Shown piece by piece: positions 4,195-14,502 of a DNA stretch of 49,869 bases. The position numbers were made by a program, and so were the translations under genes. The stretch covers positions 1 to 49,869 of the forward strand of contig NZ_JAEK01000039.1 of NCBI RefSeq assembly GCF_000518865.1, written 5' to 3'. Origin of the DNA: Bacillus sp. J37. GTDB taxonomy: Bacteria; Bacillota; Bacilli; Bacillales; Bacillaceae. Within the stretch, counting starts at the first letter, position 1, and each line of letters starts with the position of its first letter. The notes below the pieces were generated by a model. The model was not told the DNA's origin and made no database searches. It saw only the letters and a program-made list of their open reading frames with translations.

Positions 4195-6404
4195 GATGAT
4201 GTCCTTTTAATTAAATTTTCCCACAATTCAACTGATTTTCCCCATTCATCTTTTGCATTATCTTGTCTGTACAATGCCTTTTCATAGTTTTTGGTTAATG
4301 CCGTCATATGAACCATTTGAAAATACTCATCAATGTAACGAGCATATTCCCTTAAAGTTTGACCTTCTTTTCGTTTAATCCCTCGTCTTTCATACTGTTT
4401 TAACAGGGATTCATAGGCTTGGAAAAACACATCATCATCTGATCGATTCTTATATTTCATTATAATTAATCCTGGAAGCCACTTCATTCTTGTTCGATAG
4501 ACGATAAAGATCAATAAAGCTCCCACAATTAATAGTGTATACAAGCCCATACTCCCCAAACGAAAATCACCCATGTTTAATCCAGCGTTGTTCGTTGAGG
4601 ACGCAGTTTCTTCCTTTTCCGCTTCCTCAGGCTTTTCGGGAGTTTGTTCAGGTTCTTTTTCTTCATCTAAAACTTCCTCAGGTTCCTCTTTATCCTCTGT
4701 TTTTGTTACATCCCTATAATCATTCGTTAACGTATAAGGATTAACGAAACCTTTTGTTGGTTCAAAAGGGACCCAGCCAACATCATCAAAGTATATTTCC
4801 ACCCAAGAATGAGCATTATTGTTTGTCACAACATATTCTCTTTTATTATTCTCTGCCGTACTTACAAACTCACCTTCTGTATATCCTTTCACCCAACGTG
4901 CAGGTATATCGACGGCTCTTAATAAAACAATCATCGACGTTGAGAAATTATCACAATAGCCTTTAAATGTCTCAAATAAAAATTGATCTACATAATCCTG
5001 TTCAGCTCCAGGAACAGGGATCTCTTCTTTATCATAGGTATATTCAGCACTACCTAAATAATCCTCTATCGCCTTCGCTTTATCAAACTGATTGTCCTTT
5101 GATTCTGTAATAGATACCGCAAGCTCCCGAACCCGCTCTGGTAGTGATTCAGGTAATTGTGTATACCTTTCTATAAAACCTTCTGGTACATCTTCGAAAG
5201 TTCGTACTTTCTTCATCTCATTTAATGGATATAGCGGGAGATCATATGTCACGTCATATGACAGAAAATCTTTCCTGGCACCCTCATCATCCTGAAATGG
5301 GGATATCATTTCCGAATTCCGATTAAGAAATAGCGGTAATCCCGATTCAGTTTTAACAGATGTTAAACCAAGAGGATAGATCACATGTAGATAACGATAT
5401 TCTTGATTAATCGTAATGCTGGATTCAAGACTTTTTGTCTCTACTCTATCATCAAACCAGTTTAGCTCATCCGGAATGGAGCTTATTTCTTCCTGTACTG
5501 CTTCAGGATCAGAAGCCTGCCAACCCTTACCCGTGTATACATCCTTTGTTTCCACTCTCCAGTAATGCCTGTCTGAAGATGTATGTCTAAATACTTCAGT
5601 ATCATCACTAACAAACGATCCTCCCAATGAGTCATCATTCGGGCTATACCCAATCCTTTTCGTATCTCCTCCACCTTCATCTTGTTGCCCGACTGCTGTT
5701 ATAAACGGAACAGGATCAGGCCATTGCGGTGAAGCTTTAGGTGCTAGAATTGCAAGTATCATTGAAAAGACAATGAAAGCAAAAAGTGGCATAATCCAGC
5801 GTAAAGAAGTGATTCGTTTCACTTTAAGATTTTCAAGCTTCTTTAATCGGTCAAAATAAAGCAGACCCAGCATAAAAAAACCAATTAACACAATTCTAAC
5901 AATGGCATGGGTAGCGTCATAAGGTGTAAATGTGTCTAATACCGTAATATAAACGACAGTTAACACAAAGAAAAATAAAATTCTCTTCTGATATAAAATC
6001 CAATAATGAATTAAGTAGACCAAGAGCCAAAGTAGGATAAAGAATAGTAATGTCCGAAAATTTGACGTCATTCCCATCCAATCTGCACTTGGAATAAGAG
6101 AGAAATTAAAGCCAATATCCCGTATTAAGTCCCTTATCCATAAGAAACTGAAAAATACTCCTTCGAAATACAGTCCGTGCAGCATAAACATAATGATGAA
6201 TATCTTCACAGGAAAGGTAATATACCATTTCGTATGAAAGAACGTCATGAGAAAGCTGACACCAATAAAAAACACAAATATAAATGTATTTCCCGTATCG
6301 GTAAATGCATTTAGAGGTCTCAGCCATTCCCATAACAAAATAAACGCAAACACATAGTATAAAAGAGCACCTGATTTTCCCTCAAAACTATTAGATGCCT
6401 TCAC
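4191..6404 (-). CDS. yebA: Membrane transglutaminase-like protein (YebA family)
   Basis: This is a 737-residue membrane protein. About six hydrophobic segments fill residues 12-225. A large extracytoplasmic region follows, then a transmembrane segment near 625-645 and a cytoplasmic C-terminal tail. The transglutaminase-like core has Cys484 in KGYCDNFS, His532 in NAHSWVEIYF and an acidic residue in GWVPFEPT, the Cys-His-Asp/Glu order of this fold. A Glu/Pro-rich linker (about 570-610) joins the core to the last membrane helix. Its ATG overlaps the stop of the DUF58 gene by 4 bases, which indicates translational coupling. MoxR ATPase, DUF58 protein and TgpA-like transglutaminase commonly occur together. 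The substrate is unknown; peptide or cell-wall processing is inference. A 65-residue minus-strand ORF inside it is a shadow. Confidence 0.88.
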   Translation of the reverse strand: MKASNSFEGKSGALLYYVFAFILLWEWLRPLNAFTDTGNTFIFVFFIGVSFLMTFFHTKWYITFPVKIFIIMFMLHGLYFEGVFFSFLWIRDLIRDIGFNFSLIPSADWMGMTSNFRTLLFFILLWLLVYLIHYWILYQKRILFFFVLTVVYITVLDTFTPYDATHAIVRIVLIGFFMLGLLYFDRLKKLENLKVKRITSLRWIMPLFAFIVFSMILAILAPKASPQWPDPVPFITAVGQQDEGGGDTKRIGYSPNDDSLGGSFVSDDTEVFRHTSSDRHYWRVETKDVYTGKGWQASDPEAVQEEISSIPDELNWFDDRVETKSLESSITINQEYRYLHVIYPLGLTSVKTESGLPLFLNRNSEMISPFQDDEGARKDFLSYDVTYDLPLYPLNEMKKVRTFEDVPEGFIERYTQLPESLPERVRELAVSITESKDNQFDKAKAIEDYLGSAEYTYDKEEIPVPGAEQDYVDQFLFETFKGYCDNFSTSMIVLLRAVDIPARWVKGYTEGEFVSTAENNKREYVVTNNNAHSWVEIYFDDVGWVPFEPTKGFVNPYTLTNDYRDVTKTEDKEEPEEVLDEEKEPEQTPEKPEEAEKEETASSTNNAGLNMGDFRLGSMGLYTLLIVGALLIFIVYRTRMKWLPGLIIMKYKNRSDDDVFFQAYESLLKQYERRGIKRKEGQTLREYARYIDEYFQMVHMTALTKNYEKALYRQDNAKDEWGKSVELWENLIKRTSS

Positions 6405-12575: not shown

Positions 12576-13220
12576 CTATCCTCCTTCCTGATTTTCTTCA
12601 TCTTTTCTCTTTAAAAGCATTTCCATCCATTTATCATCAGGTTTCTCTTGACTGTCATAGTAAACCTCGACTGCATCCTTTTCTTCCATAAGCGACTGTA
12701 TATCATGAATGTCATTTTCATTTCCGAAAATATTTCCAAAACCCTGATTGTGTTTTTTGTTACTTGTAAAATCTGTTGGAAAATTGTTTCCGAAGTTCAC
12801 AGCTGAGGCATCTTCAATGGTCCCAATATGAATATCACCAATTGTGAAGATAGAGGAAAGGGGGTCACGTTCATTTACTTTATTCTCTTCACTTCCAACA
12901 ATTTTATATGGGATTTTCTTTTCATTAATGATGATAGAAAAATCTTCTGTTTTCGGTTTTTGTCTACTTCTAATCTTTTGATTTTGGATTGTAGTGGGAT
13001 AATCCTCTTGAAAAGTATTACCTATATTTAGGATACCACTTACCTCTTTAACATCTACAGTCTCTAAATGATAGGACAAGTTTTCAAGAGTCAATTTTTC
13101 TACATGTTCAATATGAAACTTATAATTTTTCTGCTCAGCATTGAGTTTTTGTTCTATGTGAGCCATTCTTTTTTCTATATTTTGAAGGATTTTTATAATG
13201 GTTCCTTCATTTAAATCCAT
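12576..13220 (-). CDS. GerPC/GerPA-like two-module protein
   Basis: The 214 residues start with a short coiled coil (about 8-30, KILQNIEKRMAHIEQKL). Then comes a strand-rich segment, about 40-70, ending VKEVSGILNIGNTF. This resembles the segment YKFDQLKVE.LEGTLNIG that I recall from GerPC. Around residues 125-170 it carries one copy of the module shared with the next four genes (NFGNNFP, KKHNQGFG, GNEND). The C-terminus is acidic and then basic. GerP proteins are spore-coat proteins that let germinants reach the inner membrane; a similar place is inferred here. AAGGGATGAG precedes the ATG. It is divergent from the small plus-strand member at 13305. No close family is certain. Confidence 0.6.
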   Translation of the reverse strand: MDLNEGTIIKILQNIEKRMAHIEQKLNAEQKNYKFHIEHVEKLTLENLSYHLETVDVKEVSGILNIGNTFQEDYPTTIQNQKIRSRQKPKTEDFSIIINEKKIPYKIVGSEENKVNERDPLSSIFTIGDIHIGTIEDASAVNFGNNFPTDFTSNKKHNQGFGNIFGNENDIHDIQSLMEEKDAVEVYYDSQEKPDDKWMEMLLKRKDEENQEGG

Positions 13221-13304
13221 ATTATCTCATCCCTTATCAATAGCACTTTAGACAGTTGTAACATACCATGTGTTATAAGTTCATTAGATCGGTGTGAGGA
13301 AATG

Positions 13305-13511
13305 ATGAAATTTGAAATTACTGCCCCGCAGATTACGTTTGAGGAAATTACAGTAAGTAACATTAAAGATAATTCAGGGATTTTTATTGGGAAAAACTAT
13401 CAACTTTATTGGAGGTCAACAATCAAAAGAAATAATTCGGGTTTCGGGAAGGTGATTGGAAATGAAAATAAGTTATCCAACAATACACATCTTGTCCTAA
13501 ATGATGATTAG
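13305..13511 (+). CDS. Small GerPA/GerPF-like protein
   Basis: This 68-residue protein is one copy of the local module. It reads ITFEEITVSNIKDNSG, then IFIGKNYQLYW, then NNSGFGKVIGNENK. The NSGxFxGxNxQxxW core is shared with the minus-strand members at 13638, 13951 and 14201. There are two adjacent ATGs; the second (13305) is 5 bases from GAGG and is preferred. A possible sigma-A promoter (TAGACA, 18 bp, TTATAA) lies in the 81-bp gap to the divergent GerPC/GerPA-like gene. It is the only member of the cluster on the plus strand. The GerP link is by motif similarity only. Confidence 0.6.
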   Translation: MKFEITAPQITFEEITVSNIKDNSGIFIGKNYQLYWRSTIKRNNSGFGKVIGNENKLSNNTHLVLNDD

Positions 13512-13515
13512 AATA

Positions 13516-13535
13516 ACTTGGCTTGTCGCCTAGTC
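13516..13535. repeat. Short hairpin motif, copy 1
   Basis: ACTTGGCTTGTCGCCTAGTC can form a small hairpin through GGC/GCC and its flanks. It matches the motif at 21961-21980 at 17 of 20 positions. It directly follows the stop codon of the small gene at 13305, but there is no T tract to make it a classical terminator. Confidence 0.45.
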
Positions 13536-13637
13536 CTAAAGCGAAAGCCTTAGTTTTACTTATACTATCATCCATAAAATTTATATACCTTCTGTATATT
13601 AAAGATAATCAACAACCCTTCAATAACAATAGCTAAA

Positions 13638-13853
13638 TTACGTATTCCTCTCTCCTTTAACAGTTGTATTCCTCTTTATTTTATTTCCGCTTCCCTTTAC
13701 ATTGCCGAACCCCTCAGAAGTCTTCTTTTGAACTCTCCAATGATATTGGACATTCTCTCCGAAAAACACACCTGAACTATTCGTGATATGTTGGACACTA
13801 ATTGACTTGTATTGAACTTTCACTATCTTTAGTATCCCCTTTACATATAACAT
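13638..13853 (-). CDS. Small GerPA/GerPF-like protein
   Basis: This is another single-module protein of up to 71 residues: VQYKSISVQHITNSSG, VFFGENVQYHW, SEGFGNVKGSGNK, then a basic tail. The ATG at 13853 has no Shine-Dalgarno sequence. A GTG at 13820 has AAAGGGG 12 bases upstream and would give a 60-residue protein whose start fits the other members better. A sigma-A-like promoter lies just upstream (13872-13899). It is convergent with the gene at 13305; the 126-bp gap between them holds the hairpin motif and no clear terminator. Confidence 0.55.
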   Translation of the reverse strand: MLYVKGILKIVKVQYKSISVQHITNSSGVFFGENVQYHWRVQKKTSEGFGNVKGSGNKIKRNTTVKGERNT

Positions 13854-13871
13854 GATGATAAATTTCCCATT

Positions 13872-13899
13872 TATATAACGATATGCAAGTTTTAGTCAA
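13872..13899 (-). promoter_or_regulatory. Promoter of the small gene at 13638
   Basis: TTGACT (13894-13899) and TATATA (13872-13877) are 16 bp apart on the minus strand. A CATATCGTTA within the spacer also partly resembles a sigma-K -10 box but lacks a proper -35 element, so sigma-A is the better call. Confidence 0.5.
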
Positions 13900-13915
13900 T
13901 GAATACCCTTAAAGT

Positions 13916-13940
13916 AAAAAACCATCTATTTAAAGATGGT
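13916..13940 (-). terminator. Terminator of the two-gene GerP-like unit
   Basis: The minus strand has ACCATCT-ttaaat-AGATGGT followed by T residues, 11 bp after the stop at 13951. It separates the 14443-13951 unit from the promoter of the next small gene. Confidence 0.8.
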
Positions 13941-13950
13941 AAGGAGCTGA

Positions 13951-14199
13951 TTAACTCTGCGTAACAACCTGGTTATTTTCCTTTTGATATTGAGAGAAAT
14001 TCGCATCGATCAAATCATTATCATCAATGATATTAACAACTTGAGCAGCTACATTTTGATATCCAATCATTTTTCCTAATCCGCTATTACACTTCCTATT
14101 TATTTGCCAATTTATTTGTGAATTAGTCCCGGTAAAAACTCCAGAATTCGCTGAAATAGAAGCAATATTGATATTACTAAATGTAATATTCATACACAT
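13951..14199 (-). CDS. Small GerPA/GerPF-like protein (second gene of unit)
   Basis: The 82 residues start MCMNITFSNINIASISANSG, followed by VFTGTNSQINW, CNSGLGKMIGYQN, and a tail with IIDDNDLID. That tail resembles the D.DV.D ending of GerPA-type proteins. The longest frame reaches 14274, but it would run through the preceding gene. The ATG at 14199 comes one base after the TAA of that gene and has no strong ribosome site, which points to translational coupling. It shares the sigma-K-type promoter of the first gene. Confidence 0.6.
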   Translation of the reverse strand: MCMNITFSNINIASISANSGVFTGTNSQINWQINRKCNSGLGKMIGYQNVAAQVVNIIDDNDLIDANFSQYQKENNQVVTQS

Positions 14200-14200
14200 T

Positions 14201-14443
14201 TTAGATCTGGGAAACTGGTTGTGGATTAATATTCTCAGGCTGAGCAATAGGAGTATCACATACATCTTGATCATTTATAATATTTGTACATCCTAAGATT
14301 ACGGCGTTTACAGAATTACCATTACCCGAATTAAATTTCCCCTGAGCATTCCAGTCAGGTTGGCTGTTCTGGCCTGAGGCAATAATCGAATTGGAAGACA
14401 TGCTTAAAACATTTATTTGATTAAATACAACCGAAACAGGCAC
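14201..14443 (-). CDS. Small GerPA/GerPF-like protein (first gene of unit)
   Basis: This 80-residue protein begins MPVSVVFNQINVLSMSSNS and keeps GQNSQPDW and NSGNGNS. It ends with NIINDQDVCDTPI and a Pro/Asn/Gln-rich tail. It is the most GerPA/GerPF-like of the set, because those proteins also start MP.(V/I) and carry a (N/D).DV.D motif. The ATG at 14458 has no ribosome site. GGAGGA lies 8 bases before the GTG at 14443, which is therefore taken as the start. A sigma-K promoter match (14475-14502) fits expression in the mother cell late in sporulation, as for gerP. Confidence 0.62.
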   Translation of the reverse strand: MPVSVVFNQINVLSMSSNSIIASGQNSQPDWNAQGKFNSGNGNSVNAVILGCTNIINDQDVCDTPIAQPENINPQPVSQI

Positions 14444-14474
14444 TAATGATTCCTCCATTCATAAAAGATTATAT

Positions 14475-14502
14475 TACTATATGCATGTAGGAAAAGAATG
14501 TG
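14475..14502 (-). promoter_or_regulatory. Sigma-K-type promoter of the GerP-like unit
   Basis: CATATAGTA (14475-14483, minus strand) fits the sigma-K -10 consensus CATAnnnTA fully. CAC (14500-14502) sits 16 bp upstream, where the -35 AC element is expected. Start sites would fall about 25 bp before the GTG start codon. Confidence 0.6.

Follow-up and report, generated by a model that had tools for sequence, protein, structure and literature searches.

The window analyzed here, a stretch of 49,869 nucleotides from the soil bacterium Bacillus sp. J37 (NZ_JAEK01000039.1), corresponds to contig C28 in a Metabacillus-type genome of 5.3 Mb, and between positions 12576 and 14458 it carries five small genes (P1 to P5) whose products appear remotely related to the GerP proteins of spore formers. 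All but P2, which lies on the plus strand, are encoded on the minus strand. P5 (14201–14443, minus strand) encodes 80 amino acids with a GerPA-like module and the tail DQDVCD; its open reading frame (ORF) is open up to an ATG at 14458, and the most likely start is the GTG at 14443 behind GGAGG, since the relatives begin with MPVS and the ATG sits on the ribosome site. P4 (13951–14199, minus strand), which begins one or a few bases after the stop of P5, encodes 80–82 amino acids, again a GerPA-like module, with the tail DNDLID. A first-pass annotation of this DNA had given two members a D.DV.D tail, a description that suits P5 and does not exactly fit P4. Directly after P4, a terminator-like hairpin (13921–13940, minus strand) possibly closes a P5-P4 unit, although one such hairpin was found where 0.9 were expected in shuffled sequence, which makes it weak on its own. 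P3 (13638–13853, minus strand) codes for a module of at most 71 amino acids without the acidic tail, and its start is uncertain because the window has LKIVKVQ where relatives have a methionine (LKMVKVQ) near the likely start. P2 (13302–13511, plus strand) is a module of 68–69 amino acids, transcribed divergently from P1. Finally, P1 (12576–13220, minus strand, 214 amino acids) joins a GerPC-like N-terminal part (12999–13175, minus strand, approximately residues 16–74, ending in VSGILNIGNTF) to a GerPA-like module (12690–12860, minus strand, approximately residues 121–177). When P4 was used to query the whole genome, exactly five matches were obtained at E ≤0.01: P4 itself, P5 (8.7e-9), P2 (1.7e-8), P3 (4.1e-5), and P1 (8.8e-5). 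The common module is thus not a product of chance, and the five neighboring genes sharing it are all in place as first described.

To what extent this module resembles known proteins depends on the sensitivity of the comparison. With the Pfam gerPA model (PF10676) the window proteins obtained E-values of 0.032 (P1), 0.076 (P2), 0.099 (P3), 0.076 (P4), and 0.045 (P5), and their scores of 13.4–14.9 bits are all under the curated cut-off of 27.3 bits. By Pfam cut-offs, then, they are not members of the named GerP families. Nevertheless, 31 of 40 modules from the window and its named relatives match gerPA at E ≤0.1, the next family matching 3 of 40. In profile-profile comparisons, whose E-values refer to single pairs, the profile of all modules matched canonical GerPA at 2.7e-6 across 63 columns and GerPF at 9.6e-5; among 60 column-shuffled controls the best values were 0.0068 and 0.006, respectively, and the reversed profile gave 0.5 and 0.12. 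The homology to GerPA spans the whole length of the module, while the matches to GerPB, GerPD, and GerPE (0.005, 0.001, and 0.0011) are confined to its first half. Moreover, the modules of two distant relatives pass the gerPA cut-off (G193, 31.1 bits; G162, 29.3 bits); both were picked up by a model of the P1-type module, yet they fall outside the P1-type clade in the tree. These profiles mark the module as a remote homolog of GerPA, and the kinship to GerPA and GerPC that had been suspected from the letters alone is borne out above the shuffled controls, though at a distance that the Pfam cut-offs do not reach. The refuting condition named at the outset, that profiles of no GerP family would match, thus gave a mixed outcome. 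No convincing relative was detected in the PDB by sequence, the best E-values being 0.13 with a GerPF-type protein and 0.36 with the module profile. An encapsulated-ferritin match at the C-terminus of P1 (TIGR04535, E 0.0016, 18.4 bits against a cut-off of 125; Pfam EncFtn-like, E 0.026) was rejected as likely chance on a short charged stretch; EncFtn-like matches 2 of the 40 modules.

The N-terminal part of P1 was compared with GerPC in the same manner and gave a profile E-value of 5.8e-9, the best shuffle reaching 0.003. The match includes a stretch with an LxGxLNIG strand, which is a feature of GerPC. A model built from residues 1–72 of ten P1 proteins recovered GerPC from each of the 31 canonical loci given, with E-values from 6e-7 to 2.5e-3 among 5688 ORFs. 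Where GerPC has its C-terminal half, P1 carries a module. Two of three P1 relatives scanned show both GerPC and gerPA in a single protein, in each case under the cut-off; their GerPC scores are 18.3 (L042) and 19.9 bits (L043), the third (L033) having no GerPC match. Pfam GerPC also matches some P1 relatives weakly (G029, 0.0025; G035, 0.0067; G032, 0.035; G030, 0.072; G023, 0.084; G005, 0.64), in a range of E-values that includes ORFs of unrelated appearance. In six genomes of one family (G162, G172, G193, G204, G214, and G234), GerPC was found above the cut-off within 1 kb of modules matching the P1-type model, the match in G214 having an internal stop. Separately, positions ~35–88 of Pfam GerPC weakly match (E ~0.006–0.6) an ORF of ~530–590 residues in 35 of 59 genomes, for example at G000:C88:203849-204007.

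How the two parts of P1 came together can be read from its relatives. A tree built from 181 modules has a P1-type clade to which 30 loci contribute one member each (support 0.998), and 22 of these loci encode the P1-type module as a gene of its own. Immediately upstream of that gene, and on its strand, 18 of the 22 have a GerPC-like gene; it is further off in two, and none was found in the remaining two. From this arrangement P1 is best described as a fusion of two genes that are usually adjacent, in agreement with the fusion of GerPC and GerPA, with a GerPC-related N-terminus ending in ILNIGN, that had been proposed initially; that P1 unites neighboring genes also suggests that both parts work together.

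The search for the same cluster in related genomes turned up 11 fused-type loci with gene order and strands intact, namely the window, M. halosaccharovorans, M. niabensis, M. iocasae, Mesobacillus maritimus, and six genomes from another two genera. The closest named loci are those of M. niabensis and M. halosaccharovorans, with 90 and 89% identity in P1, respectively. A twelfth fused-type locus (L037) has, within the stretch fetched, P1 only and with a broken frame. This locus comes from Bacillus sp. CGMCC 1.16541; its P1, at 5016–5644 of a fetched stretch of 10.6 kb, is split over two frames and has the look of a remnant in decay. Relative to four named loci, and where computable (for P3 and P1, the comparison with L036 gave a saturated dS), dN/dS was 0.06–0.14 for P5, 0.05–0.23 for P4, 0.24–0.54 for P3, 0.14–0.24 for P2, and 0.24–0.31 for P1; it is thus below 1 in all five genes, with P3 the least constrained. 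In a tree with eight loci per type, each of the five types was monophyletic, with support of 0.96–0.99 except for P3 (0.21). The strong divergence noted earlier is therefore true of the genes with respect to each other, but not within types, each of which is conserved as such. Since order, strand, and types are constant across genera and dN/dS is low, we discarded, for the lineage of the window, the idea that these are variable coat proteins. The cluster of Mesobacillus maritimus (L035, 3857–5648) differs from that of the window by a dS of 0.21–0.36, far below the 0.86 of the adjacent GroEL and the saturated value of Rex; the whole five-gene set therefore appears to have been transferred together from one genus to another.

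Is there any indication of when these genes are expressed? A sigma-K-like site, AC-N16-CATATAGT, precedes the P5-P4 pair (14476–14501, minus strand), where the first-pass annotation had placed one, and a second, AC-N15-CATACCAT, precedes P2 (13245–13269, plus strand). We searched for the pattern AC-N15-17-CATANNNT within 110 bases upstream of gene starts and found it before 35 of 203 cluster genes vs 3 of 324 flanking genes (p 1e-12), with the reservation that starts were chosen differently in the two sets, by a ribosome site near the module in cluster genes and as the first start of the ORF in flanking genes. Among 32 less redundant loci the counts were 23/146 vs 2/241 (p 8e-9), and five scrambled versions of the −10 part were not enriched. 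As a positive control, the pattern was present before all 30 canonical gerPA genes examined (31 loci were given, two of them being the same gene), and gerP is controlled by sigma-K (PMC2817736). The P5 site is conserved in all 11 five-gene loci of the fused type. Gene by gene, in 10 loci, the full site was found before P2 in seven and before P3 in one (with the −10 part alone in another four), and before P1 and P4 in none. Sigma-70-type promoters were not in excess in the window (12 found vs 13.4 expected).

The canonical gerP operon is found elsewhere in the same genome, at approximately 14.2–16.5 kb of contig C14, where gerPA, gerPC, and gerPF are recognized by Pfam and where we take the other genes to be gerPB, gerPD, and gerPE from gene order and sequence. 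The window cluster is therefore an additional set. Two more genes of the gerPA/gerPF type, above the Pfam cut-off, lie outside both clusters (G000:C89:69478-69693 and G000:C95:38252-38437). A model of the P1-type module matched, at 1e-5 or better, 59 of 398 Bacilli genomes, the window genome included, some of these matches being to other module types. SpoIVA, used as a proxy for spore formation, is present in 58 of the 59 vs 267 of the 398 overall, a count to which no simple p-value can be attached because the genomes are related; the exception (G372) is a draft. Among 299 genomes of the phylum, 17 match the same model, 15 of them outside the class. In one family (f39) gerPA was above the Pfam cut-off in none of the 25 model-positive genomes and GerPC passed in three; this search covered all 25 and five others of the 59, and a very distant gerP could escape it. 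Each of seven loci fetched from this family has a GerPC-like gene directly before the P1-type module and an Hsp20-like ORF, and some of its genomes have two such places (G414 and G432).

The Hsp20-like partner found in other lineages and the wide spread of the cluster had both gone unnoticed in the first reading of the window. With a model made from four Hsp20 proteins that stand beside such clusters (three confirmed by Pfam, the fourth annotated), and with E-values of up to 1e-3 accepted, we detected an Hsp20-like ORF in 29 of the 34 loci belonging to other types, a count that includes the seed loci, some near relatives, and two loci from one genome; those without it are L040, L049, L055, L127, and L135. 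None was detected in the 12 fused-type loci, one of which is the window, and the three Hsp20 genes of the window genome are all on other contigs. In Bacillus velezensis AP3 (NZ_CP094295.1, locus L090), a gene annotated as GerPC, an Hsp20 gene, and module genes lie side by side. The record is called a plasmid, yet it looks chromosomal, with a sodium-dependent transporter, a superoxide dismutase, and a squalene-type enzyme besides the GerPC-like cluster. By synteny, we take this cluster to be the yocL-yocM-yozN region of B. subtilis, and the probable counterpart of the Hsp20 protein in that species is presumably the one named YocM. The order yozO-yocM is in print, as is salt induction of this probable counterpart (PMC3498285), which also moves to protein aggregates (PMC10536567); an hsp20 of B. 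thuringiensis was studied in sporulation (PMC6737285).

Taken together, we favor, with moderate confidence, the reading that the five genes encode a second GerP-type assembly, made late in sporulation, located in the coat, and separate from gerP. Although not the gerP operon, the cluster is a relative of GerP and probably acts in a similar way. According to this model, the five module proteins would be made in the mother cell from the sigma-K-like sites and would assemble jointly in the inner coat. P1 would act as the organizer, its GerPC-like part standing where the canonical set has GerPC and the fusion tying its own GerPA-like module to that part. The assembly would alter how the inner coat is built and which small molecules pass through it during germination. 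In many other lineages, in which separate, neighboring genes encode the GerPC-like part and the P1-type module, the Hsp20-like protein of the cluster would probably keep the small proteins soluble until they assemble. A broader version, which we put forward tentatively and hold to be less probable, is that of a distinct GerP-type machine that extends beyond its class, has its own Hsp20 chaperone, and provides the sole passage for germinants where canonical gerPA is undetected; the window would then represent a derived form, with the GerPC-like part and the module fused and the chaperone lost.

Several observations weigh against a GerP-type assembly. All five window proteins score below every Pfam and NCBIfam cut-off; the P1-type module taken alone is only weakly similar to GerPA (E 0.015) and GerPF (E 0.001), and the fold predicted for P4 from 40 aligned modules was unusable (pLDDT 50, pTM 0.25). 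Pfam GerPC (cut-off 22.4 bits) does not match the P1 of the window at E 1, and the profile match stops at column 77 of 204, the C-terminal half of GerPC being absent from P1. Furthermore, the reversed profile of the GerPC-like part still scores 0.0047, and thus the composition of the coil contributes some of the score. As for the promoters, P1, P3, and P4 of the window have no full sigma-K-like site upstream, 20 of 44 cluster loci have no site at all, and a control with a swapped −35 part (CA for AC) is enriched too (26/203 vs 3/324), so the signal resides mostly in the −10 part. Sigma-E has the same −10 part as sigma-K, and for this reason expression from sigma-E is possible. Lastly, the cluster is patchy within the genus, with P4 matches in four of 20 other genomes, two of which have the unfused type.

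The main rival is that these are purely structural or surface proteins of the coat, without effect on the passage of germinants, their homology to GerP reflecting a common building block. We consider this unlikely, but some of the data are in its favor. The number of modules varies in distant lineages and some clusters have no P1-type module or no GerPC-like gene; the patchy occurrence and the probable transfer between genera also agree with it. Some ORFs hold two modules in tandem, as at L050 5634–6188, L053 5092–5607, L040 193–720, L125 5914–6528, L127 4077–4583, L132 3054–3581, and L137 5067–5627. On the other hand, a GerPC-like gene is present in 20 of the 22 loci with a stand-alone P1-type module, which is a GerP-like make-up, and with no gerPA over the cut-off in 25 of 25 genomes of family f39, the GerP-type genes detected in that family are those of such loci. 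A sporulation stress system centered on Hsp20, with the modules as its clients or regulators, seems improbable to us; the frequent Hsp20-like ORF in loci of other types (four of which were the sources of the model) and the salt induction of the probable counterpart YocM and its movement to protein aggregates speak for it, but none of the fused-type loci has such an ORF, and this genome carries its three Hsp20 genes on other contigs. That the genes are functionless, decaying gerP duplicates is very improbable and already disfavored, for despite the weak constraint on P3 against one relative (dN/dS 0.54) and the broken P1 of L037, dN/dS is below 1 throughout, the promoter pattern is conserved, and the modules do not group with GerPA/GerPF in the tree, so they are not recent copies.

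How GerP proteins pass nutrients through the coat is, to our knowledge, an unsolved problem. A fused protein pointing to two direct partners, a larger natural family of modules, and species in which such loci may replace gerP together offer a direct route to testing which components are required and how they combine. Likewise, an Hsp20 borne by the cluster would point to a chaperoned assembly of the coat. The Hsp20-type proteins CotM and CotP are linked to the spore coat, and we know of neither being located in a GerP-type cluster.

In the literature searched, there was no recognizable description of a second GerP-type cluster. A survey of sporulation genes names gerP once (PMC3533761), and looking for GerPC jointly with Hsp20 yielded a single genome paper (PMC10556750). 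Deletion of gerP delays germination, a defect that is cured by removal of the coat, and B. anthracis has the stand-alone genes gerPF2 and gerPF3 (PMC2817736). These genes resemble our case in that they provide additional GerPF-type proteins outside gerP, with overlapping function, but they are single genes close to GerPF, with no mention of a GerPC-like part (PMC2817736). The B. velezensis cluster shares with the window a GerPC-like protein (27.7 bits, cut-off 22.4) and the modules, with an adjoining Hsp20 gene; it differs in having no fusion and in that the tree places its modules closer to GerPA/GerPF, though the support for this is modest. With respect to the canonical gerPABCDEF operon, the layout of the window is different, as had been stated at the outset, with five genes on two strands instead of six, A to F, in one direction; moreover, its GerPC-like part, which has no equivalent of the C-terminal half of GerPC, is joined to a module, and its modules have the core NSGxFxGxNxQxxW in proteins under the Pfam cut-offs. 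What both sets have in common is one GerPC-type part with five small module units, modules remotely homologous to GerPA/GerPF together with a P1 N-terminus remotely homologous to GerPC, and a sigma-K-like pattern upstream.

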